From positions 310,001 through 374,000 of the forward strand of contig NZ_PEFL01000003.1 of assembly GCF_002754475.1 (NCBI RefSeq): a stretch of DNA of 64,000 bases, in the 5' to 3' direction. The notes under the pieces were generated by a model that saw nothing but the letters and a program-made list of their open reading frames with translations, ran no database searches and was not told the origin of the DNA. Positions 23,129-43,508 of the stretch are shown piece by piece. Source of the stretch: Comamonas sp. 26 (GTDB taxonomy: Bacteria > Pseudomonadota > Gammaproteobacteria > Burkholderiales > Burkholderiaceae_C). Positions within the stretch are counted from its first letter, which is position 1, and each line of letters starts with the position of its first letter. Position numbers and translations under genes: made by a program.

Positions 23129-24292
23129 CTACAGAAGCTGGCTGGCTGCGCCGTCAAGCAGCAGACCACCACGCACCACAATTTTTTCGCCCACCTTAAG
23201 GCCAGAGATCACCGGCACCATGCCGCGCGATGGACGCCCCAGAGTCACCTTGCGCGCCTCAAACTGGTTGTTCTCGTGCTGCACATAGACCACGCTAAGG
23301 CTTTCATCCTTGATGAGCACGGCGCTCACGGGGATCAGCATCTCTTGCAGGTTGGAAAGCTGCACACCCACCTTGGCCTGCATGCCAGGACGCAGCACGG
23401 GGTTCTGCTCGCTCAGCTCCACCACCACTGCGGCGCGGCGCGATTCTTTATCCAGCGTAGCCCCCAGATGACGAACCGTACCCTTGAGGGGTTTGGCCAG
23501 TTGCGGTACTTCAACCTGAACAGCGCTGCCTAGGCGAATGCCAGGCAAGTCGGACTCAAACACCTCGGCCACCACATTCATGGCCTGCGGGTCACCAATC
23601 ATGAACAGTGCAGCACCTGGGTCAGCCGCATTGCCAACCACAGCCTTGCGCTCGGCCACGATGCCTGCACGCGGGGCGCGCAGTTCAATGCGATCGCCAC
23701 CGCCGGAGCCCAGCAGTGCAGCTGTGCCTTGAGCACGGCCCAGCTCTTGCGATGTTTCACGCAGCTTGGCCTGAGCAGCACGCAGATCGACCTCAACGCC
23801 CACGCCCTTGTTCACCATGTTTTGCTGACGCTGGGCTTCAACCACCGCCACATCGTGGGCGGTCTTGGCTGCGGCCACGTCATAGCGTGTGCGCAGTGCA
23901 TCGGGGCTGACCAGCGTCGCCAGCAAATCGCCGGCCTTGACCATATCGCCCACATGCGCGTTGACGGTGACCACGCGCGCCGAGATGGGTACAGAAGCCG
24001 ATGCCACACGATCTTCCACAAACGCCACATGCGCAGGAGCCCAGGCCATTTGCAAGCCTTGAGGGTCTGTCACCGCCGCAATATCCAGCATCTTCACGGA
24101 CTCAGGCTTGACCTGCAAAAAGCCCTTGGGCAGGGAAGCCGCAGTGTTTTGTGCGCCCTCTGTCGCTTTAGAGGCGTCGCACCCGCTGAGCAAGCCAGCC
24201 AAAGCAACGGCCATAGCCGCCACAGACAGTTTTGCCACTGTCTTGGTTGGTAAATGCGCCGCTGCCGGCAGTCCCACAAGGCTCTTGTTCAT
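23129..24292 (-). CDS. czcB: CzcB-like periplasmic adaptor lipoprotein
   Basis: The 387-residue membrane-fusion protein joins CzcA to CzcC. A lipobox LAGLLSGCDAS near residue 38 predicts a lipid anchor. The lipoyl halves (RVVTVNAHVGDMVKAGDLLATL and RIELRAPRAGIVAERKAVVG), a short coiled-coil and a barrel domain (VQVEVPQLAKPLKGTVRHLG) are in order. It is the first gene of the leftward czcBAC operon. An inverted repeat (24400-24415) lies about 110 bases upstream and may bind the response regulator. Confidence 0.88.
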   Translation of the reverse strand: MNKSLVGLPAAAHLPTKTVAKLSVAAMAVALAGLLSGCDASKATEGAQNTAASLPKGFLQVKPESVKMLDIAAVTDPQGLQMAWAPAHVAFVEDRVASASVPISARVVTVNAHVGDMVKAGDLLATLVSPDALRTRYDVAAAKTAHDVAVVEAQRQQNMVNKGVGVEVDLRAAQAKLRETSQELGRAQGTAALLGSGGGDRIELRAPRAGIVAERKAVVGNAADPGAALFMIGDPQAMNVVAEVFESDLPGIRLGSAVQVEVPQLAKPLKGTVRHLGATLDKESRRAAVVVELSEQNPVLRPGMQAKVGVQLSNLQEMLIPVSAVLIKDESLSVVYVQHENNQFEARKVTLGRPSRGMVPVISGLKVGEKIVVRGGLLLDGAASQLL

Positions 24293-24399
24293 CGTTCACC
24301 CTTTTTCGATGGCTGGAAAGTGAAGAGCTTCAGCACCGCTTCTCTTCCAGTGATGGCGCCATGCTAGGAACAGCGGCAAGCCTATTGGGTGACGCACGC

Positions 24400-24415
24400 A
24401 TTACGGTTTGGTAAG
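24400..24415. promoter_or_regulatory. Possible regulator site upstream of czcB
   Basis: ATTAC and GTAAG arms separated by six bases lie about 110 bases upstream of the czcB start. TTAC-type half sites with such spacing are common for OmpR-family regulators, and the operon encodes one. The link is inferred. Confidence 0.3.
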
Positions 24416-24548
24416 GGACGGACAGTAGCTGCAACCCAGTCCGCGCGCGCCCTCACGCTGACCAGAACTCAGTCAGCTCTGAACACGCAACAGCTTTGAT
24501 TTGCCTGTTTTTTCATCAAGGCAAAGTAAACACGCCTGAATTGCCTAA

Positions 24549-24571
24549 AAAACAGGCGATCAGCCTGTTTT
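24549..24571. terminator. Perfect inverted repeat, possible bidirectional terminator
   Basis: AAAACAGGC and GCCTGTTTT are exact complements around a GATCA loop and are flanked by A- and T-runs on the two sides. It could stop transcription entering the AT-rich region from either direction. Confidence 0.35.
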
Positions 24572-24719
24572 CTCGTGTGATTTTTCATACATGAGTACTA
24601 AGAGTATCTAGATATCGTCAGATCAGGTCGACAGCTGGCTCAAGCCATGTTTTCAATAAAAGTGCTCTCAATCCCTTGTATAGCTTTGGATATCTACTAT
24701 CAAAAGAAGAGCTACCGAG

Positions 24720-25125
24720 TTATCCATTCGGTGGATAAATTGAAGATCCGTGCCTCTGTTTTTCAAGAAATCAACACAAAAAGCAGATCTGGCATACAAA
24801 TCACGTTTTGAGCAGCTACAGAAGAAAAACTAGCCAGGATAAAACGCATGAAATAACGAGCTTCATAGCTGTGGATAAATTACATGTTCTCCGAACTTAG
24901 AGAGCCACAATAAGCGTGAACAACCTTAACCACAGCACTTGAAAACTAGCAATTTTTCACTCTTAAAGCGAATTTTCAAATTCTAGAAAAACCTATTTAT
25001 TCATAAAAATTTAACAACCTTATCAACAACTATTACTACATAGTTATCTCCAAGATACAAACAAGCTCCATCAGCGTCACTTCTGTGGATAAGTTTCTTG
25101 AAAACTACGTTTCAGACAATCCACA
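24720..25125. other. DnaA-box cluster A (candidate origin, left half)
   Basis: Exact TTATCCACA boxes occur on the minus strand at 24870-24878 and 25084-25092. One-mismatch boxes are TTAACCACA (24926-24934), TTATCAACA (25020-25028) and the minus-strand box at 24730-24738. That last box pairs with TTATCCATT (24720-24728) to form a perfect 7-5-7 palindrome. Weaker matches lie at 25044-25052 and 25117-25125. The DNA between 24941 and 25075 is very AT-rich, as expected for an unwinding element. Confidence 0.7.
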
Positions 25126-25324
25126 ATTAAAATGAACAAGTCCTCCTCAAGTGGTGGAAAAGATTACTCATATACACCTCCGAGATACATCTGTAGAACA
25201 TACGAAAATCATCGATTTGTATGCTGTATTGCATAAGAAATTCAATCTTATTTAATACATATCCCTGTACGAATACTTATAAAACGCTAAAGCACAGTGC
25301 CTTTGCGTCTCGAAAAGCGCTGAA

Positions 25325-27499
25325 ATGCACGAAAAAAAGTGGGCTGAAGAGGCCCTGAATTCCTTTGATGCCGTCGTTGGAGCCATGCCAGGATTTCGCA
25401 GCCGTGAAGGGCAGCGAAAAATGGCAGCTCAAATCGCAAAAACGCTGAGCGAAGCCCAGCTCGGAAAAGTCGATGAAGACGATCCAGAACCCCGCCGGGC
25501 CATTGCCGTGGTGCAGGCCGGAACAGGCGTGGGAAAGTCGCTGGCCTACAGCATCCCGGCCATCCGCATGGCGCTGTCGCGTGGCACGCGTGTGCTGATA
25601 TCCACCGCAACGGTGGCGCTGCAAGAGCAGTTGGTAAACAAGGATTTGCCGGCACTGGCCGCCAAGCTCGATCAGCCCTTCAAATTCGCGCTGGCCAAGG
25701 GCCGTGGCCGCTTTGTCTGCAAACTCAAGCTGGAGCGACTTGCCAGTACGGGCGAAGCGCAGGATGAGGAAATAGACGATCTTTTTGGCGATGAAAAGGC
25801 CCAGACCAAGATCAATCGGCCCCAGCACGAGCTGCAGGCCCGCATGCAGTTCTACAAATCCATGGCAGATGCGCTGGCAACCGAGGCATGGAGTGGCGAC
25901 CGCGATTCGCTAGAAACGCCGCCAGAGCCCGAGGCATGGAGCCCCGTGGCCGCAGAGTCATCGTCTTGCACTGGCAAGCACTGCCCTGCTTTCAGCAACT
26001 GCGTTTATTACGAGCGCCGCAAGGACCTGGTAGCCGCGCAAGTCATTGTGGCCAATCATGATTTGCTGCTTTCCTCGCTCGGCTCCAAGCTGCTTCCGGA
26101 TCTGGATAACTGCCTGCTGATCCTTGATGAGGCGCACCACCTGCCCTCCACCGCGCTCGATCAATTTGCAGGCGAGATGGACCTGAGCCGCCTGACCTGG
26201 ATCGACAAACTGGCCAGCCGTGCGCTGCGCGTGAACCAGGTCGCTGAAGTGGAAGAGCTGGCCGATTTGCCCAAGCACGCAGGTCAGCTGCGCCTGCAGA
26301 TGCAGGAGCTGGCCAGACTGGTCATGGAGCAGTACGGAGAGGCCCTTAAATCGCAAAAAGACAGCTATGGGCCGCCTAGGGTACGGGCGGCCCGCGGAAT
26401 GCTGCCTGAGACGCTTTTAGAGCCTTTGGGCCTTATTGCGCACCATGCCGATGGCTTTCTGGATGCGCTGCGTGCTGTTTCCAAAGCGCTGCGTGCAGAA
26501 ATCAAGGACAAGCCCGAGGAAGCACAGCGCCTGTCCACCATCTATGCGCAGGTCGGGGCACTCGCACCGCGGCTGGAAGCCATCTCCAACACCACTCAAT
26601 TGCTTTTGCAGCAAAGCGGGCAGGATGGCGAGAGCACGACGGTGCCCAACGCCAAGTGGTTCACGCTGGAGATGGACGGGGAATTCATTGCCGTCAAGGC
26701 TCACGCCAGCCCCATTCAGCCGGGTTCCACCCTGCGCCGGCACCTGTGGTCGCAGGTCAGAGGCGCAGTGCTGACCTCTGCCACGCTGGCCAGTTGCGGC
26801 CATTTCGACTTCTTTTTGCGTGAGGCTGGGCTGGTCAACGACCCCTCAGTCACCACGCTGGAAGTACCCAGCCCCTTCGACTATGCCCGCCAAGGCACGC
26901 TAGTGGCCCGGGAGACGGCCGCAGACCCGCGTGAAGCGGCCCGCTTTACCGAGGAGATGGTCGAGGCCTTGCTGAACGATCTAAGCCGCATACAGGCCGG
27001 TGCGCTGGTCTTGTTCACATCCCGCGAGCAAATGCGGCAGGCGGTGGATGCGCTATCCACCAGCATGCGCAATCAGGTGCTGGTCCAAACCGCCTTGCCC
27101 CGCCAGACCTTGCTGGCGCGCCACCGCGAAGCCGTGGAAACGGGCGAGCCTTCCATCATCTTCGGCATGCAATCTTTTGGTGAAGGGCTGGATCTGCCCG
27201 GTGCGCTGTGCGAGTCGCTGTTCATCACCAAGCTGCCTTTTGCCCCGCCCGACGACCCGGTGGGTGAAGCAAGAGCCGAATGGCTGCGCAGCAGTGGCCG
27301 CAACCCCTTCAACGAACTGGTTGTGCCTGCCACGGCCATTCGCCTGGCGCAGTGGGTAGGACGCGCCATTCGAACCGAAGAAGACCAGGCCCATGTGTAC
27401 TGCTATGACCGCCGCCTGACAGGCACCAGCTATGGCCAGTTGCTCATCAAGAGCCTGCCGCCATTCACCCTGCAACGCAGGCCGGTTCAAGCTGTTTGA
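25325..27499 (+). CDS. dinG: ATP-dependent DNA helicase DinG
   Basis: DinG is a superfamily 2 helicase related to XPD that unwinds DNA 5' to 3' and resolves R-loops and G-quadruplexes. The 724-residue protein has QAGTGVGKSLAYS (Walker A, about residue 64) and DEAHHLP (Walker B). Four cysteines for an iron-sulfur cluster lie at FVCKL and in SCTGKHCPAFSNCVYY. The final motif reads AQWVGRAIRTEEDQ. No strong ribosome site precedes the ATG, and there is no other start nearby because upstream DNA is non-coding. The gene is placed between two AT-rich DnaA-box clusters. Two terminator-like hairpins follow it. A helicase inside a candidate origin is suggestive, but DinG is not a known initiator. Confidence 0.92.
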   Translation: MHEKKWAEEALNSFDAVVGAMPGFRSREGQRKMAAQIAKTLSEAQLGKVDEDDPEPRRAIAVVQAGTGVGKSLAYSIPAIRMALSRGTRVLISTATVALQEQLVNKDLPALAAKLDQPFKFALAKGRGRFVCKLKLERLASTGEAQDEEIDDLFGDEKAQTKINRPQHELQARMQFYKSMADALATEAWSGDRDSLETPPEPEAWSPVAAESSSCTGKHCPAFSNCVYYERRKDLVAAQVIVANHDLLLSSLGSKLLPDLDNCLLILDEAHHLPSTALDQFAGEMDLSRLTWIDKLASRALRVNQVAEVEELADLPKHAGQLRLQMQELARLVMEQYGEALKSQKDSYGPPRVRAARGMLPETLLEPLGLIAHHADGFLDALRAVSKALRAEIKDKPEEAQRLSTIYAQVGALAPRLEAISNTTQLLLQQSGQDGESTTVPNAKWFTLEMDGEFIAVKAHASPIQPGSTLRRHLWSQVRGAVLTSATLASCGHFDFFLREAGLVNDPSVTTLEVPSPFDYARQGTLVARETAADPREAARFTEEMVEALLNDLSRIQAGALVLFTSREQMRQAVDALSTSMRNQVLVQTALPRQTLLARHREAVETGEPSIIFGMQSFGEGLDLPGALCESLFITKLPFAPPDDPVGEARAEWLRSSGRNPFNELVVPATAIRLAQWVGRAIRTEEDQAHVYCYDRRLTGTSYGQLLIKSLPPFTLQRRPVQAV

Positions 27500-27507
27500 T
27501 GACACTG

Positions 27508-27545
27508 GCGAAGAGGCTTTTTCAGGCTTCTTCGCGCCATTTTTG
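27508..27545 (+). terminator. dinG terminator, first hairpin
   Basis: GCGAAGA (27508-27514) pairs with TCTTCGC (27529-27535) and is followed by GCCATTTTT. It starts nine bases after the dinG stop codon. Confidence 0.5.
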
Positions 27546-27614
27546 TGGCGTTTTTCACGCCTCTTAGCCTGCTGCACCAGCCGTCTATTTCATGCCTGGC
27601 ATCGGCATGAGCAC

Positions 27615-27645
27615 AAGCCTTTTTGCACCAAAAGGCTTTTGTAAT
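27615..27645 (+). terminator. dinG terminator, second hairpin
   Basis: AAGCCTTTT (27615-27623) pairs exactly with AAAAGGCTT (27630-27638) around a six-base loop, followed by a T-rich tail. It is a strong intrinsic terminator form and closes off transcription before the second DnaA-box cluster. Confidence 0.65.
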
Positions 27646-28026
27646 TTTTCTAACACTTGAAGGGGTGGAGTTGGGTGGAGGATCAATGACTCCAGCCTCC
27701 CAACCTTCCTAGTGATTCGTTGTGCTCTCGCATCCAGTCGCTCAGCGATTGCGCTGTGATCAACAGCTGGAGTTCATCAGACACGATGAGTTCGCATCAC
27801 TTCGCAATGGGCGTGGCTTCTCGCAACGGTGCCATCCACAAGTTCTTTGCTTTTGACCTGCAGCTGTGGGCAGGCTGCAAAGGAGCAATTGAAGGCGTCT
27901 TCAGAAAAATCGTTTGAAAACAATGGCGTAAAGACCATTGAATTTTTTTGAATGCACTGCTATCGCCTGCCTGCAATGGGCAGTGTGGCTTTACGGAATA
28001 GCTATCCCCAGCTGTTTATAACATTC

Positions 28027-28895
28027 TGTGGATAACTTCCTTCACCAAGGACTTGTTATTGAACTTTATCCCCAACTCTTGATGTTGAGGCTGCGCATCT
28101 TACGCCAATTTTTTGAGTTCTGACGCGTCAATTTTTCTAAAGCCATTTTTTCCTGCTCTCACCCTCTGTAGAGAGGCTTTGAGACACCTGATTGACGGAA
28201 GTTCAAACCCACACACATTGCGCAATCTTGGGTTTGCCTTTGGTTGTTCTTTAGATTTCTTATAAATATTTAGTCGTAGTAGTAAGGATCTCATGTTCCT
28301 GTTGATAACTATCAAAAATTGATAAAAATCAACCATCTTGGGTTCTGATAAACATGGAGACAGATGATGGCTACTGCTGTCCTCCATTCATGAACAACTT
28401 GCAAGGTTTAAGAATTTCTGTGGACAACATCTAAGTTGATATGGCGTTATCCACAAAAATTCATATCTCATGAATAAATAAGAAAAACGCTGTTTATCAA
28501 GTAAATACAAGCATTATTAGCTATGCTTTTTATAGTGAATAACTAAAGAAGACCTGATTGGGCACATCAGGTTTGAGGGATGTGAAGTACCCCGAGGGCT
28601 TTCTCAACAATCTGAGCAACCCATTTTTTATTCAATGCGTGCAGGTATGCTGTGCAAACTTTGGCTTTAGTTGTTATTGCTAATCTTATATTTTTACTTA
28701 GTAGTAATAGTAAGTGACCCACTTAATTGTGGATAAGTAATAAATTTCAATAAAAATCAACGACTTAAGATTTATTTAAGTCTGTGGCTGAAGATCAACT
28801 CCTGCTGTCCTTGATTTGGGAATAACTTTTTCAAACTGGGAATATCTGTGGAAAACATGAAAATTTCTCTATTCTTATCACCATGTTTATACACA
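28027..28895. other. DnaA-box cluster B (candidate origin, right half)
   Basis: Exact boxes are at 28027-28035 (minus), 28447-28455 (plus) and 28728-28736 (minus). One-mismatch boxes are TTATCCCCA (28066-28074), TGTTGATAA (28300-28308), TGTGGACAA (28419-28427), TGTGGAAAA (28847-28855) and TTATACACA (28887-28895). AT-rich tracts lie between them, notably 28470-28550 and 28670-28780. With cluster A this makes five exact 9-mers in about 2.4 kb of non-coding DNA, far above chance. Confidence 0.7.
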
Positions 28896-28921
28896 GGCCT
28901 GTTTGACTGATGACAGACATG

Positions 28922-28945
28922 AAAAAGCCACCCGGAGGTGGCTTT
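28922..28945 (-). terminator. pagL terminator
   Basis: AAAGCCACC and GGTGGCTTT pair exactly around a four-base loop; on the minus strand the stem is followed by a T-run. It lies 25 bases past the pagL stop codon. Confidence 0.75.
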
Positions 28946-28969
28946 GCCTGGTTGCAGCTGTCTGGCTGA

Positions 28970-29533
28970 CTAGAAGTACCGTGCGTATCGGAGCTGGAGA
29001 AAGTTTGCGCCGGGGTTGGGTTCCTTGATTCCTGCATTGGAGTGGTGCTCCAGCCGTAAGCTGATTTCGTTTTTCAGCTGCTCGCCAAACAGGTAGCCGA
29101 CTCCCAGGTGACTGGCAAAGTTGTAGCGCGTTGAGAACTCTTTGTGGTCTGTGATGTAGCGATGGTTGGTGGCATAGCTCACGCCCAGCCCTGCTTGCAG
29201 AAACCAGGGTGATTGGCCTTGTGCGGGGCGCCAGCGCAATGTGGGTTGTGCTCCCAGAACCCAGGTCGAACGATTGCCGCCCTGGTAATCGGCCGACCAG
29301 CGACTGACCGAGAGATCCCAGTAGCCTGTCAGCTTGCCCGAGCCTAGTGCGTAGCTCCAGTTCCAGGGGAGCATGACGCCGCCGGTCCAGCTGTCTGTGC
29401 CATGTTCTGAGGCACCGTATTGCAGGTATACGCCTGTGGCCGAGTTCTGCACAGACTGTGCATGGGCTGACAGGCTGAGCAGCGCTGGAGCCAGCAACAT
29501 GACAAATGTTTTTGCTATCTGCAGCTTTTTCAT
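28970..29533 (-). CDS. pagL: Lipid A 3-O-deacylase PagL
   Basis: PagL is an outer-membrane enzyme that removes the 3-position acyl chain from lipid A and so alters surface charge and immune recognition. The 187-residue protein has a signal peptide ending in LSAHAQS and an eight-strand barrel pattern. Its catalytic His-Ser pair lies in LEHHSNAGIKEPNPG near residue 165. It ends in an aromatic residue (RYARYF), typical of barrel assembly. Length is normal for the family. It is a single-gene unit with its own terminator. Confidence 0.87.
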   Translation of the reverse strand: MKKLQIAKTFVMLLAPALLSLSAHAQSVQNSATGVYLQYGASEHGTDSWTGGVMLPWNWSYALGSGKLTGYWDLSVSRWSADYQGGNRSTWVLGAQPTLRWRPAQGQSPWFLQAGLGVSYATNHRYITDHKEFSTRYNFASHLGVGYLFGEQLKNEISLRLEHHSNAGIKEPNPGANFLQLRYARYF

Positions 29534-29689
29534 GGCAAAGATCCTTCCAGTGTCTGGAATACGGGGCGTTATCGATCTGCTTGAATGGCCTGAATTTCGT
29601 ATGCTCTGTGGAAATGAATCTAGATCTTTGTTAATAAATGTGCTGTCGGCAAGCGATTGCGCTTGCAGTCAGCCAATGGATATCGTGCA

Positions 29690-29748: not shown

Positions 29749-30303
29749 TTACTTGGTGGCGGGAGCAGGCGCTGCGGGGCGTTCCTGACCGGGTTTGCCG
29801 CCATGGTGACCGTGGTGGTGCTCACCGCGCTGGTGATGCATGCGCAGCGAGGCCGCGTCGAATGTCTTTTGCTGCTCTGCATTGAGCTGAGCGTAGAAGG
29901 CCTTGGTGGCGTCGGCACGGCGGTCCATTTCAGCATCACGCTTGGCGCGCATCTCACGCATCTTGTCGATGCGCTGGGGCGTGGTCAGCTTGGCAAATGC
30001 GTCACGGTCGCTGGGGGCAGGGCGCTCACCGGGCTTCATGGCGTTGGTGTACGTGGTCCAGGCGGACTCCTGAGCGGGGGTCAGCTTCAGGTCGGCCTTG
30101 AGCTTGGCCATACGTTCCTGCATGTGTTCCATGCGATCACCGCGCTTGTCACTACGTTGATGCTTATGGTGCTCTGGGGCTTTTTGGGTTGCTGCTGGCT
30201 GCTCTGCAGTGGCAGCAGTCTGTGCGAAGCTGGGCAGGCTCAAAGAAGCGAGCAGGGCAGTGGCAACAGCGGCGCCGGTGATGGTTTGGCGAAAGCGGGT
30301 CAT
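29749..30303 (-). CDS. Spy/CpxP-like periplasmic LTXXQ protein
   Basis: The 184-residue secreted protein has a signal peptide ending in LPSFAQTA and two LTXXQ-type motifs (LKLTPAQESAW and LNAEQQKTFD) that mark the Spy/CpxP family of envelope chaperones and metal-stress sensors. Between them is a charged helix (KMREMRAKRDAEMDRRAD). The C-terminus is His-rich (HHQRGEHHHGHHGG), so it may bind metal. The ATG at 30303 follows AAAAGGAAT. A longer frame upstream has no coding character. It probably acts in envelope stress; the specific inducer is unknown. Confidence 0.75.
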   Translation of the reverse strand: MTRFRQTITGAAVATALLASLSLPSFAQTAATAEQPAATQKAPEHHKHQRSDKRGDRMEHMQERMAKLKADLKLTPAQESAWTTYTNAMKPGERPAPSDRDAFAKLTTPQRIDKMREMRAKRDAEMDRRADATKAFYAQLNAEQQKTFDAASLRMHHQRGEHHHGHHGGKPGQERPAAPAPATK

Positions 30304-30563
30304 GTCATATTCCTTTTCAGTTGAAGTGGAAGAAGTGGCCGCTCGGTCTGCGTCTTGAAAGGCATTCGGCAGCGGATGGATGAAGTGTGGGGCGCTCATG
30401 TTTCTGTCACGTGAGGTTTTGCAGCCGCTCTGTAAAGTATTGAGAAGATTAGGCGGCTCTGACTGCGCAACAATGGATGCATGGGCTGCTTTGGCAGCCG
30501 ATTTTTTCCGTGAGACTCCGCTGCGGGATCTCACGACGATTGAAGGTTTAGCAAAGGTTTTTG

Positions 30564-31598
30564 ATGTTCAAGAACATGATTGTTTATCGCATTGCCGAAA
30601 GCTGGCAGGGCGATCTGCAGGTGCTGGAAGATGCGCTGCAAAAGACGGTGTTTGCCGAGTGCGGCGCGACGCAGGAACGCTCGGTCGGCTGGATGCCACC
30701 GCGTGGCGAGCAGCATGGCCCGCTGGCCGAATCGGTGGCTGGGCAATGGGTGATGCGCTTCATGAGCGAATCCAAGATGCTGCCTGCCAGCGTGCTCAAC
30801 CGCAGGGTTAACGAAAAGGCCGCACACATTGAAGCGACGGAAGGCCGCAAGCCGGGCAAGAAAGAGAAAAAAGACCTGAAGGACGAGGCCAAGCTGGATC
30901 TGCTGCCCATGGCTTTTACCAAGCAAGGTGCCATGTGGGTCTGGATTGACCCGCAGGCGCGTACGCTGGTGCTCGATACCAGTGCGCAAGGCCGTGCCGA
31001 TGAGATCGTCACGCTGCTGGTCGAAGGCCTGCCCGGCTTTGCGCTGGCACTGGTGGACACTCAGACCAGCCCGCAGGCGGCCATGGCGCACTGGCTGATG
31101 ACGCAAGAGCCACCCGCAGGCTTTGCGGTGGACCGCGAATGTGAACTGAAGGCTGCCGACGAATCCAAGGCCGTGGTGCGCTACGCACGCCACCCGCTGG
31201 ATATTGACGAGGTGCGCCAGCATATCGAGCACGGCAAGATGCCCACCAAGCTGGCCATGACCTGGGATGACCGCGTGAGCTTTGTGCTGACCGAAGGCCT
31301 GCAGATCAAGAAGATTGCGCTGCTGGATGCGGTGATGGATGGCCAGTCGCAAGACGATGGCGGTTTTGATACCGATGTGACCATTGCCACCGGCGAGTTG
31401 TCACGCCTGATTCCTGATCTGATCGAGGCGCTGGGCGGTGAAGGCCGTACCGGTCTGGGCGAGTGGCTGCCTGCTTCTTTGCGCGCCACGCCTGCTGAAA
31501 CCTTGCCCGTGCGACTGGCCCAAGGCCGCAGCCAAGGCACGGTGACCGGTCCGGCTGCAGCGCCTGCCGATACCGCTCCCGAAGAAGCACCCTTCTGA
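30564..31598 (+). CDS. rdgC: Recombination-associated protein RdgC
   Basis: RdgC is a nucleoid-associated ring protein that binds double-stranded DNA and restrains RecA. The 344-residue sequence begins MFKNMIVYRI and includes SVGWMPPRG, NRRVNEKAAHIEATEGRKPGKKE and FPCR-like acidic and basic stretches; it aligns along the usual RdgC length apart from a longer Ala/Pro tail. AAAGG precedes the ATG by a suitable gap. It sits about 1.6 kb from DnaA-box cluster B. It ends before a copy of the 80-base intergenic repeat and a bidirectional terminator. Confidence 0.88.
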   Translation: MFKNMIVYRIAESWQGDLQVLEDALQKTVFAECGATQERSVGWMPPRGEQHGPLAESVAGQWVMRFMSESKMLPASVLNRRVNEKAAHIEATEGRKPGKKEKKDLKDEAKLDLLPMAFTKQGAMWVWIDPQARTLVLDTSAQGRADEIVTLLVEGLPGFALALVDTQTSPQAAMAHWLMTQEPPAGFAVDRECELKAADESKAVVRYARHPLDIDEVRQHIEHGKMPTKLAMTWDDRVSFVLTEGLQIKKIALLDAVMDGQSQDDGGFDTDVTIATGELSRLIPDLIEALGGEGRTGLGEWLPASLRATPAETLPVRLAQGRSQGTVTGPAAAPADTAPEEAPF

Positions 31599-33122: not shown

Positions 33123-33138
33123 GGTTTCACGTGAAACC
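33123..33138. other. parS-like centromere site 1
   Basis: GGTTTCACGTGAAACC contains the full 14-base parS core GTTTCACGTGAAAC; only the outermost pair differs from the consensus TGTTTCACGTGAAACA, and the palindrome is kept. It overlaps the stop codon of cueR. Confidence 0.85.
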
Positions 33139-33675
33139 CGGGTCAAGCGTTTTCGGAGACTTTTCCTCAGGCTGCAGCCTTGCTGCGGCGTCTGGGCGTG
33201 GGGGTAATGGGCTCGCGTGATGAGCAGGCGACAGATCGGTGTCGGCGCTGGCCAGATCGTCGAGGATGGGACAGTCGGGCCGGTCATCGCCATGGCAGCA
33301 ATGCACCAGCGTCTGCAAAGTGCGCTGCATGGACTGCATGGCGGCAATGCGCTCGGCCAGCGCGGCAATATGCTTTTGCGCAATGGTCTTGACCTGATTG
33401 CTGGCACGGTCCTGGTTTTGCCACAGGCCGAGCAGGGTGGCGATCTCATCCATGGAAAAGCCCAGATCACGCCCGCGGCGGATAAAGCGCAGCGCGTGCA
33501 CATCGGCCTCCGTGTACTGGCGGTAGCCGCTGTCTGTGCGGTGAACGGGTGCCAGCAGGCCTAGTGATTCGTAGTGGCGCACCATGCGCGGCGACACCCC
33601 GGCACGGCGTGCGGCTTCGCCGATGACGACAGGCCAGTTTTGAGCGATTTTTTGCGTTGATGGTTGGCTAGGCAT
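33127..33675 (-). CDS. cueR: Cu(I)-responsive MerR-family regulator CueR
   Basis: The 182-residue activator senses cytosolic Cu(I) and turns on copper export genes. The N-terminal winged helix reads VIGEAARRAGVSPRMVRHYESLGL and GYRQYTEADVHALRFIRRGRDLGFSMDEI. The dimer helix ends in CCHGDDRPDCPIL, carrying the metal-binding Cys pair of CueR-type proteins. About 40 extra residues follow, rich in Pro and Ala. It is the second gene of a copZ-cueR unit, 77 bases after copZ, so it probably activates its own synthesis through the promoter at 34000-34030. Confidence 0.87.
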   Translation of the reverse strand: MPSQPSTQKIAQNWPVVIGEAARRAGVSPRMVRHYESLGLLAPVHRTDSGYRQYTEADVHALRFIRRGRDLGFSMDEIATLLGLWQNQDRASNQVKTIAQKHIAALAERIAAMQSMQRTLQTLVHCCHGDDRPDCPILDDLASADTDLSPAHHASPLPPRPDAAARLQPEEKSPKTLDPGFT

Positions 33676-33752
33676 GGTGCTCCTCGAAAAAACGCGCCAG
33701 CGGCCCTTTGATGACTTGCATGAGGCGCTGGCGCTGTGGTGTGAGAGCTGGC

Positions 33753-33947
33753 TCAGGCGACCTTGTAGCCTTCTTCGGCAATGGCGGCTTGCAGTGCATC
33801 GCGGCTGGCGCTGCTGTCCACCTCAACGCGGTTGGCGGAACGGTCGATCTTGATCTGGGCCTGGGCGTCAATGCCTTGAATGGCGTTGGTGACAGCGCGT
33901 TCGCAATGGCCACAGGTCATGCCTTGAACTTCAAAAACTTGTTGCAT
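33753..33947 (-). CDS. copZ: Copper chaperone CopZ-like
   Basis: The 64-residue protein is a single heavy-metal-associated domain with the metal site GMTCGHC near residue 10. It carries Cu(I) in the cytosol to a copper ATPase or to CueR. AAGGAG precedes the ATG. No copper ATPase gene lies beside it in the window. Its promoter has the MerR-family layout. Confidence 0.87.
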   Translation of the reverse strand: MQQVFEVQGMTCGHCERAVTNAIQGIDAQAQIKIDRSANRVEVDSSASRDALQAAIAEEGYKVA

Positions 33948-33999
33948 GGATCAGCTCCTTCAGAGGTGAGCCACCGGGCTGGTGGACTCTATGATTTGA

Positions 34000-34030
34000 A
34001 TGTTCAACCCTAACATCATGGCAAGGTCAA
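34000..34030 (-). promoter_or_regulatory. CueR-type promoter of copZ-cueR
   Basis: On the minus strand TTGACC (-35) and GAACAT (-10) are separated by exactly 19 bases, the long spacer that MerR-family activators correct by DNA twisting. The spacer begins TTGCCATG and ends TTAGGGTT, a partial dyad like known copper-regulator sites. The -10 box lies about 50 bases upstream of the copZ start codon. Confidence 0.8.
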
Positions 34031-34216
34031 GCGCTTTTCAAAACATGAGCACCGGCAGGGTTGATAAGTCGCAAAGCATGCCGATAAGAACTTGTCATAT
34101 TGCAGGTCGCCATGGTGCAAGTGCTTTGGTTGTGGCCTTTTTGTTTGTTGACAATTTGAAACAATTGCTGTTTCTGGTGTAAAAGATGCCGGTCTTTCAA
34201 AGTCGAGGGGGGATTC

Positions 34217-35902
34217 ATGAGTCTGTTGGAAATGATGCGGGGTTTCACCATCCGCACACGCATGCTGGGCGCCATTGGTGTGGTGATGGTTTTGCTGGGA
34301 TTGCTGGGAGGCGCTGGCATGCTGGGGATGTCGCGCATTCAGGATATGAGCCAGGATTTTCGGAACAATGCCTTTGCAAAATCAGGCCATATGGCGCAAT
34401 TGCGCATAGAGCTGGGCGGCATCCGCATCAGTGAAAAAGACATGGTCATCCAGTACGAGAAGCCTGAGGAAGTGATCAAGGCCAATCAGCAGTGGAGCAA
34501 GTTCATCGACCAATCCAAGGCCACGCTGGGCAAGTTTATGACCGATCAGAGCGCAGAAGATGCGCTGCTGGCCAAGAGCATCACTGAGCGCATAGACAGC
34601 TATCGCAAGCTGTTTGAGCCGGTGGCACGCCAGCTGGAAGCTGGGGGCTATGACTCGGCAACCACGGCCAATCGCATGAGCGGCAAGGCGCTGGCCGAAA
34701 TGGCCGAGGCCGACAAGTTGCTGGCCCAGCTCGACAGCTTGCTGCGTCAGCAGTCAGATGCGCTGACCGCGGCTGAGCGCAAGGTGGCTGAGCAAACGCG
34801 CTGGTTGTTTATCGCGGCGGTGGTGCTGGCTCTGGTGGTGGTGATTCCGCTGACCTTGCTGAATATGCTGTCCATCTGCCAGCCGCTGGAAAGCGCCCGC
34901 CAGATGGCCTTGACGATTGCTGGTGGGGATCTCTCGCGCAAGGCGCATGTCAGCGGCAAGGATGAGCTGACCGATCTGCAGCAGGCGCTGGATGAAATGC
35001 AGCAATCGCTGAGCAGCACGGTGGCGCAAGTGCGCGACGCCAGCGGCAACATTGCCACGGCCAGCCAAGAGATTGCGACGGGCAACCAGGACCTGTCTGC
35101 CAGAACCGAGCAGACGGCCAGCAACCTGCAGGAAACCGTGGCTTCTCTGGCCCAGTTGACGGCTACTGTGCAGCAGACGGCATCGTCGTCGCAGCTGGCC
35201 AATCAGCTGGCTGCTTCGGCATCTTCCACCGCCGTGCAAGGCGGTCAGATCGTGGGTCAGGCCGTGAACAGCATGCAGGAGATTTCAGGCTCCAGCCGCA
35301 AGATTGGCGACATCATCGGGCTGATTGATTCCATCGCATTCCAGACCAATATTCTGGCGCTGAATGCAGCGGTAGAAGCCGCTCGCGCAGGCGAGCAAGG
35401 CCGCGGTTTTGCCGTGGTGGCATCTGAGGTGCGCAGTCTGGCCAAGCGCTCGGCCGAAGCGGCCAATGAAATCAAGACGCTGATCAACACCAGCGTGCAG
35501 AGCGTGGATGTGGGCGCGCGCCAGGTGGAGAGTGCGGGCAAGGCCATGCAGGACACGGTGGACAGCGCCAAGCGCGTGGGCGACATCATTGGCGAGATCA
35601 CTGCGGCGTCCAGCGAGCAGTCTCTGGGTATTAGCCAGGTGAATCAGGCCGTGGGTGATATTGACCGCATGACGCAGCAAAACGCGGCGCTGGTGGAAGA
35701 GTCTGCCGCAGCTGCCGAATCGCTGCGCGAGCAGGCGGCAAGGCTGGCGCAACTGGTCAGCCAGTTTCAACTGGCGGGTGGTTCTGTGCAGGCCGCGATG
35801 CGTGCTGGGCCAGGGCCGCGCCGGAGTCCACCTCCGGCGGTGACGTCGGTTGGAAAGGCTGCCTTGCCTAAGCAAAAGTCCCCGTTGCTGGAACATGCAT
35901 AA
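34217..35902 (+). CDS. Methyl-accepting chemotaxis protein
   Basis: The 561-residue receptor has a helix near residues 17-37, a periplasmic four-helix-bundle domain, a second helix near 196-216, a HAMP linker and the signalling hairpin with [20 protein letters not shown] and [19 protein letters not shown]. It passes ligand signals to CheA. The C-terminus lacks the NWETF-like tether for CheR and instead ends in a Pro- and Lys-rich tail. The ligand is unknown. A GGGGGG run serves as the ribosome site. Confidence 0.9.
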
Positions 35903-35921
35903 GCGCTAAGTCACGCCAATA

Positions 35922-35957
35922 AAAAAAGCCCGGTTGCAGCAATGCGCCGGGCTTTTT
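35922..35957. terminator. Bidirectional terminator between chemoreceptor and OYE gene
   Basis: AAAAAAGCCCGG pairs with CCGGGCTTTTT around a short loop, with A- and T-runs on both sides; it can stop both convergent genes. Confidence 0.75.
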
Positions 35958-35970
35958 GCTTTCAATTCAG

Positions 35971-36006
35971 TAGCTGCCAGCGCAATCAATGAAAGCGCTG
36001 GAAGCT
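35971..36006. repeat. Intergenic inverted-repeat element, short copy
   Basis: AGCTGCCAGCGC and GCGCTGGAAGCT are inverted arms with one mismatch, at the same position as in copy 1, but the interior is only about 11 bases. It lies between a terminator and the end of the OYE gene. Confidence 0.5.
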
Positions 36007-36013
36007 GTTTTAA

Positions 36014-37132
36014 CTATGAATGAGCGATAGCAGGGTAGTCGGTATAGCCGTCTTCGCCACCGCCATAAAAGCGTTTGCTGTCCCACGCATTGAGCGGCAG
36101 ATTGGCCTGCAGGCGGTGCACCAGATCGGGGTTGGAGATATAGGCTTTGCCAAAGGCCACCACGTCGGCGTAACCGCTTTCAACGGCGTTCATGGCCATC
36201 TGTCGGTCATAGCCGTTGTTGACCATCCACGCGCCCTTGCCACCTGCGGTGCGGTAGGCCTGCTTGAGTGCGTGGTAGTCAAACGGCCTGTCAGCCAGCT
36301 CGCGCGGGCCACCGGTCGAGCCTTCAATTACGTGGATATAGGACAGGCCCAGTGGAGCCAGCTGGCGCATCAGATGCTCAAACAGCGCTTGCGGGTTTTC
36401 GTCCGTAATGTCGTTGGCCGGAGTGACGGGCGAGATGCGAATGCCCACCTTGCCGCCGCCAATGGCATCGGCCACAGAGAGCATGCATTCGCGCACCAGA
36501 CGGCAGCGGTTTTCGATGCTGCCGCCGTAATCGTCGGTACGGTTATTGGTGCTGGTTTTGAGGAATTGATCAAGCAGATAGCCATTGGCGGCATGCAGCT
36601 CCACACCATCAAAACCGGCAGATTTAACGGCCTCAACTGCGGCAACGGTGAAGCTGTGGACGATTCCCGGAAGCTCCTCAGACTGCAGTGCGCGCGGTGC
36701 AGAGGTGGGGAGGAAGTTGCCCTCGCCAGTCTTTGGGTCGATCAAATAGGTCTTGGACTGGGCAGTCAAGGCCGATGGCGCAACAGGCGCGTGGTTGCCG
36801 GGCTGCAGTGTCGTATGAGAAATACGGCCTACATGCCAGAGCTGGGTGACGATGCGACCGCCCTTTGCATGAACGGCGTGGGTCACTTTTTTCCAGGCCT
36901 GCAGCTGCTCTTCACTATAGAGGCCGGGCACGTCAGAGTAGCCCTGAGCCTGCGCGCTGATGGCCGTGCCTTCGCTGATCAGCAGACCTGCCGAGGCGCG
37001 CTGTACATAGTAAGTCTGCATTGCCGGTGTGGGCACCGCATTAGGTGCCCGGTTACGCGTCAGTGGCGCCATGGCAATGCGGTTGGGCAGGCGCAGGCTA
37101 CCTGCTTCAATCGGATCAAACAGAGAGGGCAT
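36014..37132 (-). CDS. Old yellow enzyme family alkene reductase (NemA-like)
   Basis: The 372-residue FMN enzyme reduces activated C=C bonds or nitro groups with NADPH. MAPLTRNRA (phosphate and FMN contacts), QLWHVGRISH, VELHAANGYLLDQFL (substrate-binding His-Ala-Ala-Asn) and NRTDDYGGSIENR are the family landmarks. It most resembles N-ethylmaleimide reductase. GGAG precedes the ATG. It follows a glutathione transferase on the same strand, and both handle electrophiles, although a hairpin lies between them. Confidence 0.88.
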   Translation of the reverse strand: MPSLFDPIEAGSLRLPNRIAMAPLTRNRAPNAVPTPAMQTYYVQRASAGLLISEGTAISAQAQGYSDVPGLYSEEQLQAWKKVTHAVHAKGGRIVTQLWHVGRISHTTLQPGNHAPVAPSALTAQSKTYLIDPKTGEGNFLPTSAPRALQSEELPGIVHSFTVAAVEAVKSAGFDGVELHAANGYLLDQFLKTSTNNRTDDYGGSIENRCRLVRECMLSVADAIGGGKVGIRISPVTPANDITDENPQALFEHLMRQLAPLGLSYIHVIEGSTGGPRELADRPFDYHALKQAYRTAGGKGAWMVNNGYDRQMAMNAVESGYADVVAFGKAYISNPDLVHRLQANLPLNAWDSKRFYGGGEDGYTDYPAIAHS

Positions 37133-37146
37133 GCAAAGCTCCAGAT

Positions 37147-37180
37147 GAAAAAAAGCCCGATGAATGACCGAGCTTTTTTG
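37147..37180 (-). terminator. Terminator between GST and OYE genes
   Basis: AAAAAAAGC...GCTTTTTT arms with an imperfect CCG/CGA top form a hairpin with T-runs on either strand. It implies separate transcripts for the two genes. Confidence 0.5.
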
Positions 37181-37198
37181 TAAACAGATGCGGAAAAT

Positions 37199-37807
37199 TT
37201 ACTTGATCAGGCCTTCGGCCTTCATGGTTGCCTGTACCGATGGGCGGGCCAGAATGCTCTCACGGTAGGCTGCAAGGTGCTTGAGGCTGGAGATATCCAG
37301 ACCCACAAATTGGGCCCAACCTGTCACGGTGAACAGATAGGCATCGGCCACGGTGAATTGGTCGCCCATCAGAAAGGATTTGTTGGCCAGTTGCTCATTG
37401 ACCCAGCTCAGGCGCGTGAGCACATTGGCACGCACCGTAGGCTTGAAGTCTTCAGGAGTCGTCGGGTTGAAGAGGGGGCCGAAAGCCTTGTGCACTTCGG
37501 TACCGATGAAGTTCAGCCACTCCTGCAGGTGATATCGCGCCATGGTGCCATTGGCAGGCGCCAGGTTCTTTTCGGGGGCCAGATCCGCAAGGTATTGCAC
37601 GATGGCGGGACCTTCGTGCAAGGTGTCTCCGTTATCCAGCACCAGAAAGGGCACATAGCCCAGAGGATTGATGCTGTAGTAGTCAGTGCCATCCTGGAGC
37701 TTGTGGCTCTTGGTGCTGACCATTACGGCCTCATGCTGCAGGCCTGCTTCATGCAGCACGATGTGCGGAGACATTGAGCAGGCGCCGGGGCTGTAGTAAA
37801 GCTTCAT
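37199..37807 (-). CDS. gstA: Glutathione S-transferase, beta-class like
   Basis: The 202-residue cytosolic enzyme conjugates glutathione to electrophiles. It starts MKLYYSPGACSMSPHIVLHEAGL, with the Cys and Ser of beta-class enzymes at residues 10-11. The thioredoxin-like domain has the cis-Pro in GYVPFLVLDNGDTLHEGPAI, and the helical domain has FTVADAYLF. The start at 37807 gives the standard N-terminus; a longer frame to 37915 has no coding look. Confidence 0.87.
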   Translation of the reverse strand: MKLYYSPGACSMSPHIVLHEAGLQHEAVMVSTKSHKLQDGTDYYSINPLGYVPFLVLDNGDTLHEGPAIVQYLADLAPEKNLAPANGTMARYHLQEWLNFIGTEVHKAFGPLFNPTTPEDFKPTVRANVLTRLSWVNEQLANKSFLMGDQFTVADAYLFTVTGWAQFVGLDISSLKHLAAYRESILARPSVQATMKAEGLIK

Positions 37808-37908
37808 GGTGAGTGGCTTTCGTTCAGTTGAAAAGACAAGCCGCCATGCTAAACCGGATACGCTTCTGCGACATGCAGGAGGCTGACAGTGACCCGTCTC
37901 CAGGTGGG

Positions 37909-38319
37909 TCAACAAAGATCCAGACTGGGCAAGAGATCGTTCAGGTAGAGCAAGGCGTCGTTGCCACTGGCCGTTGACATCTGTGCCAGAGATATTTCCT
38001 CATCCACTTCGGCATATGCGATGGACCAGCCTTTGAACTTGCGCTCTGCCTGCATGGGGCCATGCAGCTGTAGCTTTACATCCATGTGCCGCTGATCTTT
38101 TTTGATGCTGGTCAGTACATCCTCCAGCTTTTGTGCCGGACCTTCCAGGTACTGGCAAAAACGGGAACCATCAAAAATCAGAATACCGGTCAGTCCTAAA
38201 TGCAGGTTCTTTTCCCGCGATGTGCGAACGATGTCGCCCACGCACTCAACAGGCTGCGACGGTTCGAAAACACTGCAGTACAGAAAAGCGTGAAGTGCGG
38301 AGGCTGTAGACACGGTCAA
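37909..38319 (-). CDS. BLUF-domain blue-light sensor
   Basis: The 136-residue protein is almost wholly a BLUF domain, which binds FAD and senses blue light. The photochemical Tyr is in AFLYCSV, Asn and Arg are in SREKNLHLGLTG, Gln is in FCQYLEG, and Trp is in FKGWSIAY. It has no output domain, so it must act through a partner protein. There is no ATG: the start is either TTG at 38319 or GTG at 38313, and no strong ribosome site is visible, which suggests low expression. Neighbours give no clear partner. Confidence 0.8.
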   Translation of the reverse strand: MTVSTASALHAFLYCSVFEPSQPVECVGDIVRTSREKNLHLGLTGILIFDGSRFCQYLEGPAQKLEDVLTSIKKDQRHMDVKLQLHGPMQAERKFKGWSIAYAEVDEEISLAQMSTASGNDALLYLNDLLPSLDLC

Positions 38320-38403
38320 TCTTGATAGAGGTTGAGATGGCTTGATCGTAGAGGATGAAACCTATTTTTTAGGTGAAAAGTATTCCGCAATAACCAGCTT
38401 GCC

Positions 38404-38979
38404 TTATTGAAACCGTCGTGCAGCCCATAGGACTTGCTCGACCAAGGCCTGCATGGCCTGTTGATCATGGCTGCGCTGCAGCTGGTTTTGCATATCAAAC
38501 GCATCAGCGGCATGTGCCACCGCATGGCTGCGCGGTGCAACCCAGCATTGCAGATTCAATAGCAGTGGGGCGAGGTGTGACTGGGCGCGCAGCCCACCCA
38601 TGCCACCCGGCGAAGCACTGGCCATGCCTACTACCTTGTTGCGAAAGGGCAGCGTGCCGTCAGACCACAGAGCATCGCCCTTCACGGGGCTGGAGGCCCA
38701 GTCGATGGCATTTTTAAGCAGGGCAGGATAGCTGCCGTTGTACTCAGGGCTGCAGATAATCCAGGCCGAATGGCTGTGCATGGCCTGCTTGAGCCGGATG
38801 ACATCGGCAGGTGTGCCGCGAGCTTCCAGATCCGCGTTGTAGAGCGGAATATCAAAGTCCGAAAGTTCCAGCAACGTGGCTTGTGCGCCTTGTTGCTCTG
38901 CAATAGCCGCAGCCGCCTTGGCCAACTTGCGGTTGTACGATTCTTGGCGGGTACTGCCCGCAAAAATGAGGATGTTCAT
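38404..38979 (-). CDS. NADPH-dependent FMN reductase
   Basis: The 191-residue flavodoxin-fold enzyme has the phosphate loop FAGSTRQESYN near residue 7 and CSPEYNGSYPALLKNAIDW, typical of the NADPH-dependent FMN reductase (ChrR/YieF-like) family. It reduces flavin, quinones or metals. It is divergent from mnmG, and a perfect parS site (39053-39068) lies in the gap. Confidence 0.85.
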   Translation of the reverse strand: MNILIFAGSTRQESYNRKLAKAAAAIAEQQGAQATLLELSDFDIPLYNADLEARGTPADVIRLKQAMHSHSAWIICSPEYNGSYPALLKNAIDWASSPVKGDALWSDGTLPFRNKVVGMASASPGGMGGLRAQSHLAPLLLNLQCWVAPRSHAVAHAADAFDMQNQLQRSHDQQAMQALVEQVLWAARRFQ

Positions 38980-39052
38980 GCTGTCATTGCAGCACAGGGC
39001 CGGCGCATTTTTCCTTCAAAAATAGGCCTCTCAGGGCAAACGCCAGGGTTCA

Positions 39053-39068
39053 TGTTTCACGTGAAACA
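39053..39068. other. parS centromere site 2
   Basis: TGTTTCACGTGAAACA is an exact match to the bacterial parS consensus, located in the divergent gap upstream of mnmG. Confidence 0.95.
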
Positions 39069-39231
39069 CCTGCCTCAACCCTTGCCAAGGCATTGTTGCG
39101 GCAATGGTGGGAAAATTGCGGGTTCCCCGCAGGGCAGGACATGAGATGAACACATGTCTGCCTGCCATGAGAGCCGAGGCATGGTTGCTTCGTGCAGGGG
39201 CAAGGGCCGGGCGAGGCCCCGGAGCAAGAAC

Positions 39232-41196: not shown

Positions 41197-41852
41197 GCCA
41201 GGCATTGCGTACCCAACTCGAACAAGGCATTCAGGCGCTGAAGCTGGAGCTGGCTTCTACACAGGTTGATCTGCTTATGTCCTTCATGGATCTGCTGCAG
41301 AAGTGGAACAAGGTCTACAACCTGACCTCCGTGCGTGACCCGCAGGAAATGCTGACGCATCATTTGCTCGACAGTCTGACCGCGGTACCCGCTCTGCTGC
41401 GCCATGTGAATACGCTTCCGGTAGAAGAGGGCAAGCGACTGCCTTTGCTGGACGTTGGCTCGGGCGGCGGCTTACCCGGCGTGGTTTTTGCCATCTGCTG
41501 CCCACAGATCGATGTGAACTGTGTGGACACCGTGGGCAAGAAAGCGGCCTTCATTCAGCAAGTGGCGGCGTCGCTGCGCTTGCCTAATCTGCACGGCATT
41601 CATGACCGGGTGGAAAACCTCAAGACCCAGTACCCTGTCATTAGCTGCCGTGCTTTTGCATCGTTGGTGGATTTCACTACCTGGTCGCGCAAGGCATTGG
41701 CCGACGGCGGTATCTGGTTTGCCATGAAGGCCAAACATCCCGATGAAGAGATTACAGCCCTGCCTGCCGACGTGCAGGTGTTTCACGTGGAACCTTTGCA
41801 GGTTCCTGGCTTGGATGTCGAGCGCTGCGTGATCTGGATGAAAATTGAGTAA
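41193..41852 (+). CDS. rsmG: 16S rRNA m7G527 methyltransferase RsmG (GidB)
   Basis: RsmG methylates G527 of 16S rRNA with SAM. The 219-residue enzyme has [25 protein letters not shown], the SAM motif [17 protein letters not shown] near residue 88, and the ISCRAFASL segment. It is translationally coupled to mnmG. A degenerate parS-like sequence lies near its 3' end (41779-41794). Confidence 0.95.
41779..41794. other. Degenerate parS-like site 4 (inside rsmG)
   Basis: TGTTTCACGTGGAACC matches parS at 14 of 16 positions, both changes being in the right half. It encodes Val-Phe-His-Val-Glu in RsmG. Binding by ParB is possible but likely weaker. Confidence 0.5.
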
Positions 41853-41940
41853 CCCCCTGAGCGGCTTTGCCGCTTCCCCCTGAAAGGGGGACGACGCCTT
41901 CGCCGCAGGGCGGCCCTTGCTCGGCGTCTCTGGTCTGGGG
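41853..41940. repeat. Multi-hairpin intergenic repeat, Comamonadaceae type
   Basis: Starting in the rsmG stop region, the sequence has stacked hairpins: GCGGC-TTT-GCCGC, CCCCCT-GAA-AGGGGG, and GACGCC paired with GGCGTC. From memory, closely similar CCCCCTGAG...GGACGACGCC sequences are scattered in Comamonas, Acidovorax and Variovorax genomes. Here it probably serves as the rsmG terminator. No other full copy was found in this window. Confidence 0.6.
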
Positions 41941-42687: not shown

Positions 42688-42700
42688 AAAGAGAAGTTCA

Positions 42701-43487: not shown

Positions 43488-43508
43488 GCACACGACCCCA
43501 TATCAATC

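Follow-up and report, generated by a model that had tools for sequence, protein, structure and literature searches.

A probable chromosomal replication origin with two tandem DnaA-trio modules, remote from dnaA, in Comamonas sp. 26

The present study concerns the replication origin of Comamonas sp. 26, for which we analyzed a stretch of 64,000 nucleotides (contig NZ_PEFL01000003.1, positions 310,001 to 374,000), hereafter called the window. Two AT-rich clusters of DnaA boxes flank the helicase gene dinG in this window, the left cluster at 24293-25324 and the right cluster at 27500-28969. To judge from its sequence features, the right cluster (approximately 28.0-28.9 kb) is very probably the chromosomal oriC. 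We consider it probable, furthermore, that this oriC consists of two tandem DnaA-dependent unwinding modules of about 200 bp, each combining a run of trinucleotides (trios), a spacer and DnaA boxes, that it was moved to its present site from a position 3′ of dnaA, and that the left cluster is an accessory element. The features by which an oriC is recognized coincide at this locus, namely DnaA boxes beyond chance, a GC-skew minimum and an AT-rich, easily melted element beside the boxes.

GC skew was sampled in 44 stretches over the three contigs of the assembly (4,706,642 bases; genome label G000; the window is C3:310001-374000), which cover about 13% of the genome, with the contig order and orientation C3-C1-C2 being assumed. 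In a contiguous 94 kb (C3:280001-374000), the cumulative skew minimum was found at window position 28227, within the right cluster. The skew is negative to the left of this position on C3, positive to the right of it and in the stretches sampled up to 1.93 Mb on C1, and negative again in the remainder of C1 and in C2. This locus is thus the sole negative-to-positive switch among the sampled stretches, 43 of which are consistent with a single origin here, the exception being C3:500001 (−0.001). The terminus fitted to the skew data lies near C1:2.0 Mb, and the replication arms measure about 2.44 and 2.27 Mb if the contigs close C3-C1-C2 as oriented. Four parS sites, of which three match TGTTTCACGTGAAACA perfectly (39053, 40671 and 43472) and one has a single mismatch (41779), are all located at 39.0-43.5 kb of the window, which is 10-15 kb to the right of the right cluster, and no other site within one mismatch was found in the genome. 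A site with two mismatches at 33123 brings the parS-like sites to five (33123-43487), and parA and parB are found at 42662-45016. A preliminary description of this DNA had proposed a replication origin near parS and parAB; with the only sampled switch of this sign located beside these elements and away from dnaA, the proposal of an origin is strongly supported. The same description had named a skew minimum at dnaA as evidence to the contrary, and the minimum is instead in the right cluster.

The gene dnaA is located at C3:289376-290734 (+), 45 kb to the left of dinG. An origin at dnaA (C3:289 kb), with the dinG locus merely titrating DnaA, would agree with the numbering of several complete relatives from dnaA (for example G002, G004, G022 and G027) and with one exact box that precedes the dnaA match by 113 bp. 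However, we regard this as highly improbable, since the skew is negative from dnaA to the dinG locus and then positive in G000, G001, G004, G027 and G032, and likewise in G022 apart from one positive 10-kb block before the locus, and since the trio module is absent from the sampled dnaA region of this genome. No second exact box was present in the 4.4 kb surrounding dnaA, and an origin at this gene was rejected on skew and box content. In G001, G004, G022, G027 and G032, dnaA or dnaN also lies to the left of the origin on the plus strand; on this strand these genes would be transcribed head-on to the leftward fork, as would follow if the origin had moved past them. In five relatives numbered from dnaA (G002, G004, G022, G027 and G032), position 1 is about 18-44 kb off the inferred origin. 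A comparable record is CP044131.1 (Comamonas testosteroni NFYY023; locus L102), the dinG coordinates of which equal those of G002, where dnaA is at position 40, so that the record apparently begins at dnaA. Its modules are found 17.8-18.3 kb from the record start, and position 1 is therefore not the inferred origin.

Exact TTATCCACA boxes start at 24870 and 25084 in the left cluster and at 28027, 28447 and 28728 in the right cluster. Boxes with one mismatch start at 24730, 24926 and 25020 on the left (n = 3) and at 28066, 28300, 28419, 28847 and 28887 on the right (n = 5). The five exact boxes and about eight one-mismatch boxes of the preliminary description were hence all recovered, the former at the starts given there, and its two AT-rich clusters were confirmed, with G+C contents of 0.407 (left) and 0.418 (right) in a window that is mostly at 0.53-0.64. 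The two exact boxes on the left and the three on the right each compare with 0.01 expected, and neither cluster was matched in any of 1000 dinucleotide shuffles. With the looser pattern TTATNCACA and at most one mismatch, 38 matches were counted in the whole window versus 28.6 expected, a number reached by 3 of 100 shuffles; because this count barely exceeds chance, the signal resides in the clustering and in the exact boxes. Genome-wide there are 35 exact boxes in 4.71 Mb (12 in the reversed-pattern control), and by the listed genome positions more than two per 4 kb occur at no other place. By exact boxes alone the left pair is unremarkable genome-wide, but its conservation does stand out. 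The claim that no exact box exists elsewhere in the window did not hold, as an isolated one lies at 6247-6255, outside both clusters.

By nearest-neighbour energy, the 60-bp window of lowest stability in the 64 kb belongs to the left cluster (start 24987, −1.072; best on the right, 28723 with −1.082), while the least stable 100-bp window starts at 28680 in the second module of the right cluster (−1.081; best on the left, 24950 with −1.114). Easy melting alone cannot therefore separate the two clusters. No Rfam match at the gathering threshold was obtained in 24000-29600, and a structured RNA as the cause of the conservation was rejected on this ground. Promoter and terminator scans gave nothing above shuffle level, and one strong hairpin was noted immediately 3′ of dinG (27508-27535).

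The right cluster, located between the convergent genes dinG and a pagL-like gene, contains two modules that lie in tandem on the same strand with their boxes A 428 bp apart. Module 1 (28271-28455, +) consists of the trios TAG-TCG-TAG-TAG-TAA (28271-28285), a 14-nt spacer and box A at 28300-28308 (TGTTGATAA), followed by box B at 28419 (+119), oriented as box A, and an inverted box C at 28447 (+147). Module 2 (28699-28895, +) consists of the trios TAG-TAG-TAA-TAG-TAA (28699-28713), again a 14-nt spacer, and an exact box A at 28728-28736 (TGTGGATAA), followed by a match to the IHF consensus from 28755, which is the sole one within the two clusters, by box B at 28847 (+119) and by an inverted box C at 28887 (+159). 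The alignment of module 1 with module 2 scores 74, whereas 500 shuffles average 23.5 and reach 41 at most, and on this alignment the modules are homologous copies. The preliminary description was accurate on the boxes of this cluster and had overlooked the tandem duplication. Upstream of module 1 lies a box pair (28027-28074) formed by the exact box at 28027 (−) and the one-mismatch box at 28066 (+), the 39-bp spacing of which resembles that of the B-C pair of module 2 (40 bp). A 95-codon open reading frame (ORF) on the minus strand (28100-28387) overlaps the cluster; it has no Pfam match and is probably not a gene.

According to the available portions of two published accounts, the basal unwinding system (BUS) comprises a DnaA box and at least three central-A trios, with 0-16 nt of spacer between them (PMC8287927, PMC6669920). 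A pattern of at least three trios, a 0-16-nt spacer and a box with at most two mismatches was found twice in the right cluster. No such module was found in 560 kb sampled elsewhere in this genome.

To place these modules in a wider context, we consider two sets that share species and are not independent, one of 59 named dinG loci and one of 40 rdgC-upstream loci. At least one module backed by box B or C was found in 22 of the 59 dinG loci and in 20 of the 40 rdgC-upstream loci, and at least two modules in 18 and 14 of them, respectively; many loci of both sets stop short of the origin or come from genera with the origin elsewhere. The reversed-sequence control gave modules in none of the 59 and none of the 40 loci. 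The geometry is rigid: box B is at offset 119 in 34 of the 40 offsets listed for the dinG loci and in 29 of the 34 listed for the rdgC-upstream loci, box C is mostly at 147 or 159, and the distance between boxes A is 392-451 bp, mostly 417-439. A helical phasing of this distance was inconsistent and was dropped. In many relatives the spacer length is constant at 14 although the spacer sequence diverges; in the C. denitrificans group it is 12-13 nt. The modules of relatives lie about 1-2.6 kb upstream of rdgC. In six genomes (G031, G014, G017, G019, G008 and G038), the region upstream of rdgC has one module on the opposite strand, the spacer of which measures 14 or 15 nt. Four of them (G031, G014, G017 and G019; loci L183-L186) have 8-10 exact boxes within about 2 kb upstream of rdgC, an arrangement that may represent an inverted, box-rich version of the origin. 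In G031, G014 and G017, where both are on one contig, the opposite-strand module is about 95-176 kb from dinG.

The skew minima of relatives point to the same cluster. In each of 17 named relatives with both dinG and BUS, the minimum of the fetched locus lies between −119 and +656 bp from the start of the first-module trios, and in none of them is it in the left cluster. These 17 include the loci of C. kerstersii, C. avium, C. aquatica, NoAH2 and NTP6, in which intervening DNA sets the first box A 3.5-7 kb beyond dinG. When the other eight of the 25 named strict-BUS loci were judged by the positions of skew minimum and module, four more (L074, L092, L095 and L097) joined them, so that the minimum is at most 700 bp from the first-module trios in 21 of 25 loci and in the left cluster in 0 of 25.

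The left cluster is located between a divergent CzcB-like gene and dinG (25325-27499, +; NF008729, 803.2 bits, cut-off 598), which separates the clusters as the preliminary description had it and the product of which is 98% identical to Comamonas suwonensis DinG. The exact boxes at 24870-24878 (−) and 25084-25092 (−), 214 bp apart, are invariant when eight diverged upstream regions of dinG are aligned. A block starting AATCCACAA at 25118-25141 is nearly as conserved in this alignment as the boxes. Another stretch, TTTATTCATAAAAATTTAACA at 24996-25016, falls within the least stable 60-bp window and is retained by most of the aligned sequences, with one change each in L052 and L100, though not by L053; it is possibly a second melting site. 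No conserved trio module was found in the left cluster. The lone weak trio-plus-box match there (25020-25038, −; 1-nt spacer) is missing in the 98%-identical relative L049 and is therefore probably due to chance, and it was rejected as a module. No match to the IHF consensus was found in 24293-25324 either, consensus scans being weak evidence.

We then compared 73 dinG loci, which remained from 59 + 49 sequences when those with short flanks or lacking dinG were dropped. An exact box within 800 bp upstream of dinG is present in 27 of the 39 loci with a module at most 10.5 kb downstream of dinG versus 0 of the 34 others, and at least two boxes with at most one mismatch in 31 of 39 versus 1 of 34, a contrast that is confounded with clades. 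L092 and L097 were scored as far from the origin because their 12-13-nt spacers escape the 14-nt test, but each of them has a BUS next to dinG. In the left cluster of the D. acidovorans and D. tsuruhatensis loci, only one-mismatch boxes are kept. To judge from this pattern of conservation, the left cluster is a genuine array of DnaA boxes, found together with the origin where dinG is near it. As it also holds the least stable 60-bp window, a role like that of oriC1 is plausible, and by analogy we read it as an accessory element, either oriC1-like or titrating DnaA.

Three further readings of the left cluster have to be weighed against these data. A true bipartite origin, with the left cluster as oriC1, the right cluster as oriC2, dinG looped out and both parts needed, is possible, and we rate it somewhat short of an even chance. 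It is in keeping with the invariance of the left boxes amid diverged surroundings, with both box contrasts given above and with the easily melted stretch on the left, and the layout matches the oriC1-gene-oriC2 order of H. pylori and B. subtilis as far as it is described in the available part of the source (PMC8235120). However, the gap measures 3 kb in the window but reaches about 6-10 kb in the C. kerstersii/aquatica clade, 12 of the 39 near-origin loci have no exact left box, and the contrast follows clades and is therefore not independent evidence. Of the bipartite arrangement proposed in the preliminary description, the two box clusters separated by one gene and the conserved left array thus stand, whereas skew minima fall at the right cluster in the window and in 21 of the 25 strict-BUS loci but never at the left one, and conserved trio modules are found only on the right.

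The left cluster could also be a locus for titrating or recycling DnaA near the origin, with the right cluster alone as oriC, which we regard as rather doubtful. Loci of the datA/DARS type consist of DnaA boxes with an IHF site and no unwinding element, and datA-type loci need IHF. The presence of boxes without a conserved trio module, the tolerance of the gap length and a position so near the origin that the locus would be doubled early in replication speak for such a role, but of the two clusters only the right one has an IHF-consensus match, a single one at 28755. Still less is to be said for DnaA control sites for dinG transcription that are unrelated to initiation, which we consider unlikely. 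The spacing between the first exact box and the start of dinG does vary little (−444 to −508 in named loci with exact boxes, except −375 in L061), even where the origin is 6-10 kb away; yet none of the 34 loci in which no module was seen within 10.5 kb has an exact box upstream of dinG, and at 240-455 bp upstream the boxes are far for a promoter operator.

The distribution of the module bears on the history of the origin. The strict single pattern gave 40 matches in 29 of 150 genomes of the family and none in the reversed control. Four of these 29 genomes (G138, G156, G192 and G218) have the module 3′ of the dnaA match and at most 300 bp from it; the module is on the same contig as dnaA at a distance of 14-259 kb in fifteen (G000, G002, G055, G056, G102, G110, G164, G171, G177, G206, G212, G216, G229, G233 and G238), and on a different contig from dnaA in ten. 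Four further genera of the family have the module directly 3′ of dnaA, from which it appears that the origin has moved, and we suggest that it left dnaA in the Comamonas/Acidovorax-like part of the family, a direction read from this comparison without a tree. The view that an origin without dnaA beside it is unusual is to be qualified: the arrangement is common to many relatives, and E. coli oriC adjoins mnmG and not dnaA. In the class, 4 of 274 genomes match the single pattern, three of them in the family; the reversed control gave 3 matches as well, so that the fourth genome (G802) does not rise above chance. Outside the family the module is rare or absent. Some genera have two or three module copies 4-29 kb apart (G056:C1 40086, 49286 and 69354; G233:C69 64475 and 68520; G110:C1 2495910 and 2507367; G238:C1 4504508 and 4515756; G232:C52 79968 and 84229), the first two copies of G056 being identical in box spacing (+119, +159). 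These spread modules could be scattered copies of the origin.

A number of observations weigh against our preferred reading of the right cluster as a relocated twin-module oriC with an accessory left cluster. The strict single pattern is absent from 121 of the 150 family genomes, the strict double pattern occurs in 5 of 399 family genomes, and the box-B pattern occurs in 4 of 300 genomes of the order, all among the 9 drawn from the same family, so that the strict form of the module is clade-limited. The skew minimum lies elsewhere in four of the 25 strict-BUS loci (L068, L085, L091 and L107), in three of which (L068, L085 and L107) at most about 2.3 kb separates the module from the end of the fetched sequence, and G055, G059 and G063 have no clear skew switch in the fetched stretches. 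In the window itself, the trio run of module 1 is interrupted by TCG, and the left cluster melts as readily as the right one by nearest-neighbour energy. Two-mismatch parS matches number 24 versus 34 in the reversed control, which covers the site at 33123. The terminus is placed from skew alone, because an E. coli-type 25-mer for dif gave 0 matches with up to 3 mismatches. Finally, GC skew is a record of long-term history and not of current firing.

If the preferred reading is correct, DnaA would bind box A and then extend as a filament onto a single strand of the adjoining trios, as in the B. subtilis BUS. Boxes B and C would deliver further DnaA, IHF would bend the DNA in module 2, and the helicase would then be loaded onto the melted DNA. 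The origin would have left an older site directly 3′ of dnaA, with duplication of the module, for its present site between dinG and pagL-LTXXQ-rdgC, upstream of mnmG-rsmG-parAB-parS. For the left cluster, as an analogue of oriC1/incAB, looping or the local DnaA concentration might be the mode of action. A bolder and speculative proposal, to which we attach little confidence, is an origin of three parts, in which both tandem trio modules, which share one polarity, melt, and a third element, made of boxes on the far side of dinG, brings DnaA to them through a loop. In that case the module would be a movable block of origins in this family, single beside dnaA, doubled upstream of rdgC and, in some genera, scattered as two or three copies over 4-29 kb, and shifts and duplications of a single rigid unit would underlie the evolution of origin position and copy number.

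In the usual description, a bacterial origin has a single unwinding region. With two homologous modules retained at an almost fixed distance, a clade of this kind would offer a direct test of whether a chromosome uses two melting sites, and why. Likewise, the 14/119/147-or-159 geometry could serve as a ruler for the assembly of DnaA on DNA, and the comparison suggests the departure of an origin from dnaA within one bacterial family. Among the publications listed in our literature searches, judged mostly by title, we found none on the oriC or DnaA boxes of Comamonas, on an oriC beside dinG or on DnaA-trio origins with twin unwinding regions; DoriC may well list predicted coordinates for these origins.

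The right flank of the origin is formed by the pagL-like gene (28970-29533, −; lipid A 3-O-deacylase family, PF09411, 113.6 bits). It is followed in the origin-side block by a gene for an LTXXQ-motif protein (29749-30534, −; PF07813, 70 bits) and by rdgC (30561-31598, +). The genes mnmG, rsmG, parA and parB occupy 39154-45016 (+); mnmG and rsmG score above equivalog cut-offs and parB above the cut-off of a domain model (TIGR00180), while parA is assigned by family only, below the cut-offs shown. Further to the left, a 386-codon ORF (13841-15001, +) matches only positions 241-550 of the 550-position model of 2-isopropylmalate synthase and therefore looks N-terminally truncated or mis-started.

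Among known systems, the modules most resemble the BUS of B. subtilis incC and H. pylori oriC2. As far as these are described in the available portions of the literature, the modules share with them the tandem central-A trinucleotides, the direction of the trio strand, 3′ to 5′ away from the box, and a spacer within 0-16 nt, which is 14 nt in the Comamonas modules and for which a published survey gives 13 nt as the most common length (PMC8287927, PMC6669920). They differ in that Comamonas has two tandem modules, with boxes A 428 bp apart and rigid boxes at +119 and +147/+159, and in that no box with at most one mismatch lies directly beside box A in the window, unlike the #6/#7 pair. In the bipartite origins of H. 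pylori and B. subtilis, as outlined in part of a further source, a box cluster and a cluster of boxes plus unwinding element are separated by dnaA (PMC8235120). Two box clusters parted by one gene, one of them with an unwinding element, are common to these origins and to the present locus; here, however, the separating gene is dinG and not dnaA, which is 45 kb away, the gap ranges from 3 to about 10 kb, and the exact left boxes are lost in some relatives. E. coli oriC shares with the right cluster a TGTGGATAA-oriented box followed by boxes in both orientations, and its IHF site after the first box is reminiscent of module 2. Yet the module geometry is absent from the E. coli stretch and the box spacing is unlike, and homology was rejected, since the modules score 23-30 against it versus shuffle maxima of 35-39. 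A further likeness is the location beside mnmG, which E. coli oriC, according to the part of the source available, adjoins instead of dnaA (PMC6669920). The comparison with Burkholderia cenocepacia oric1 is by description only, and the available part of that description does not name a trio module; oric1 does share with the Comamonas locus clusters of DnaA boxes near the skew minimum together with parS, and a second box cluster is noted there as well (PMC4948915).

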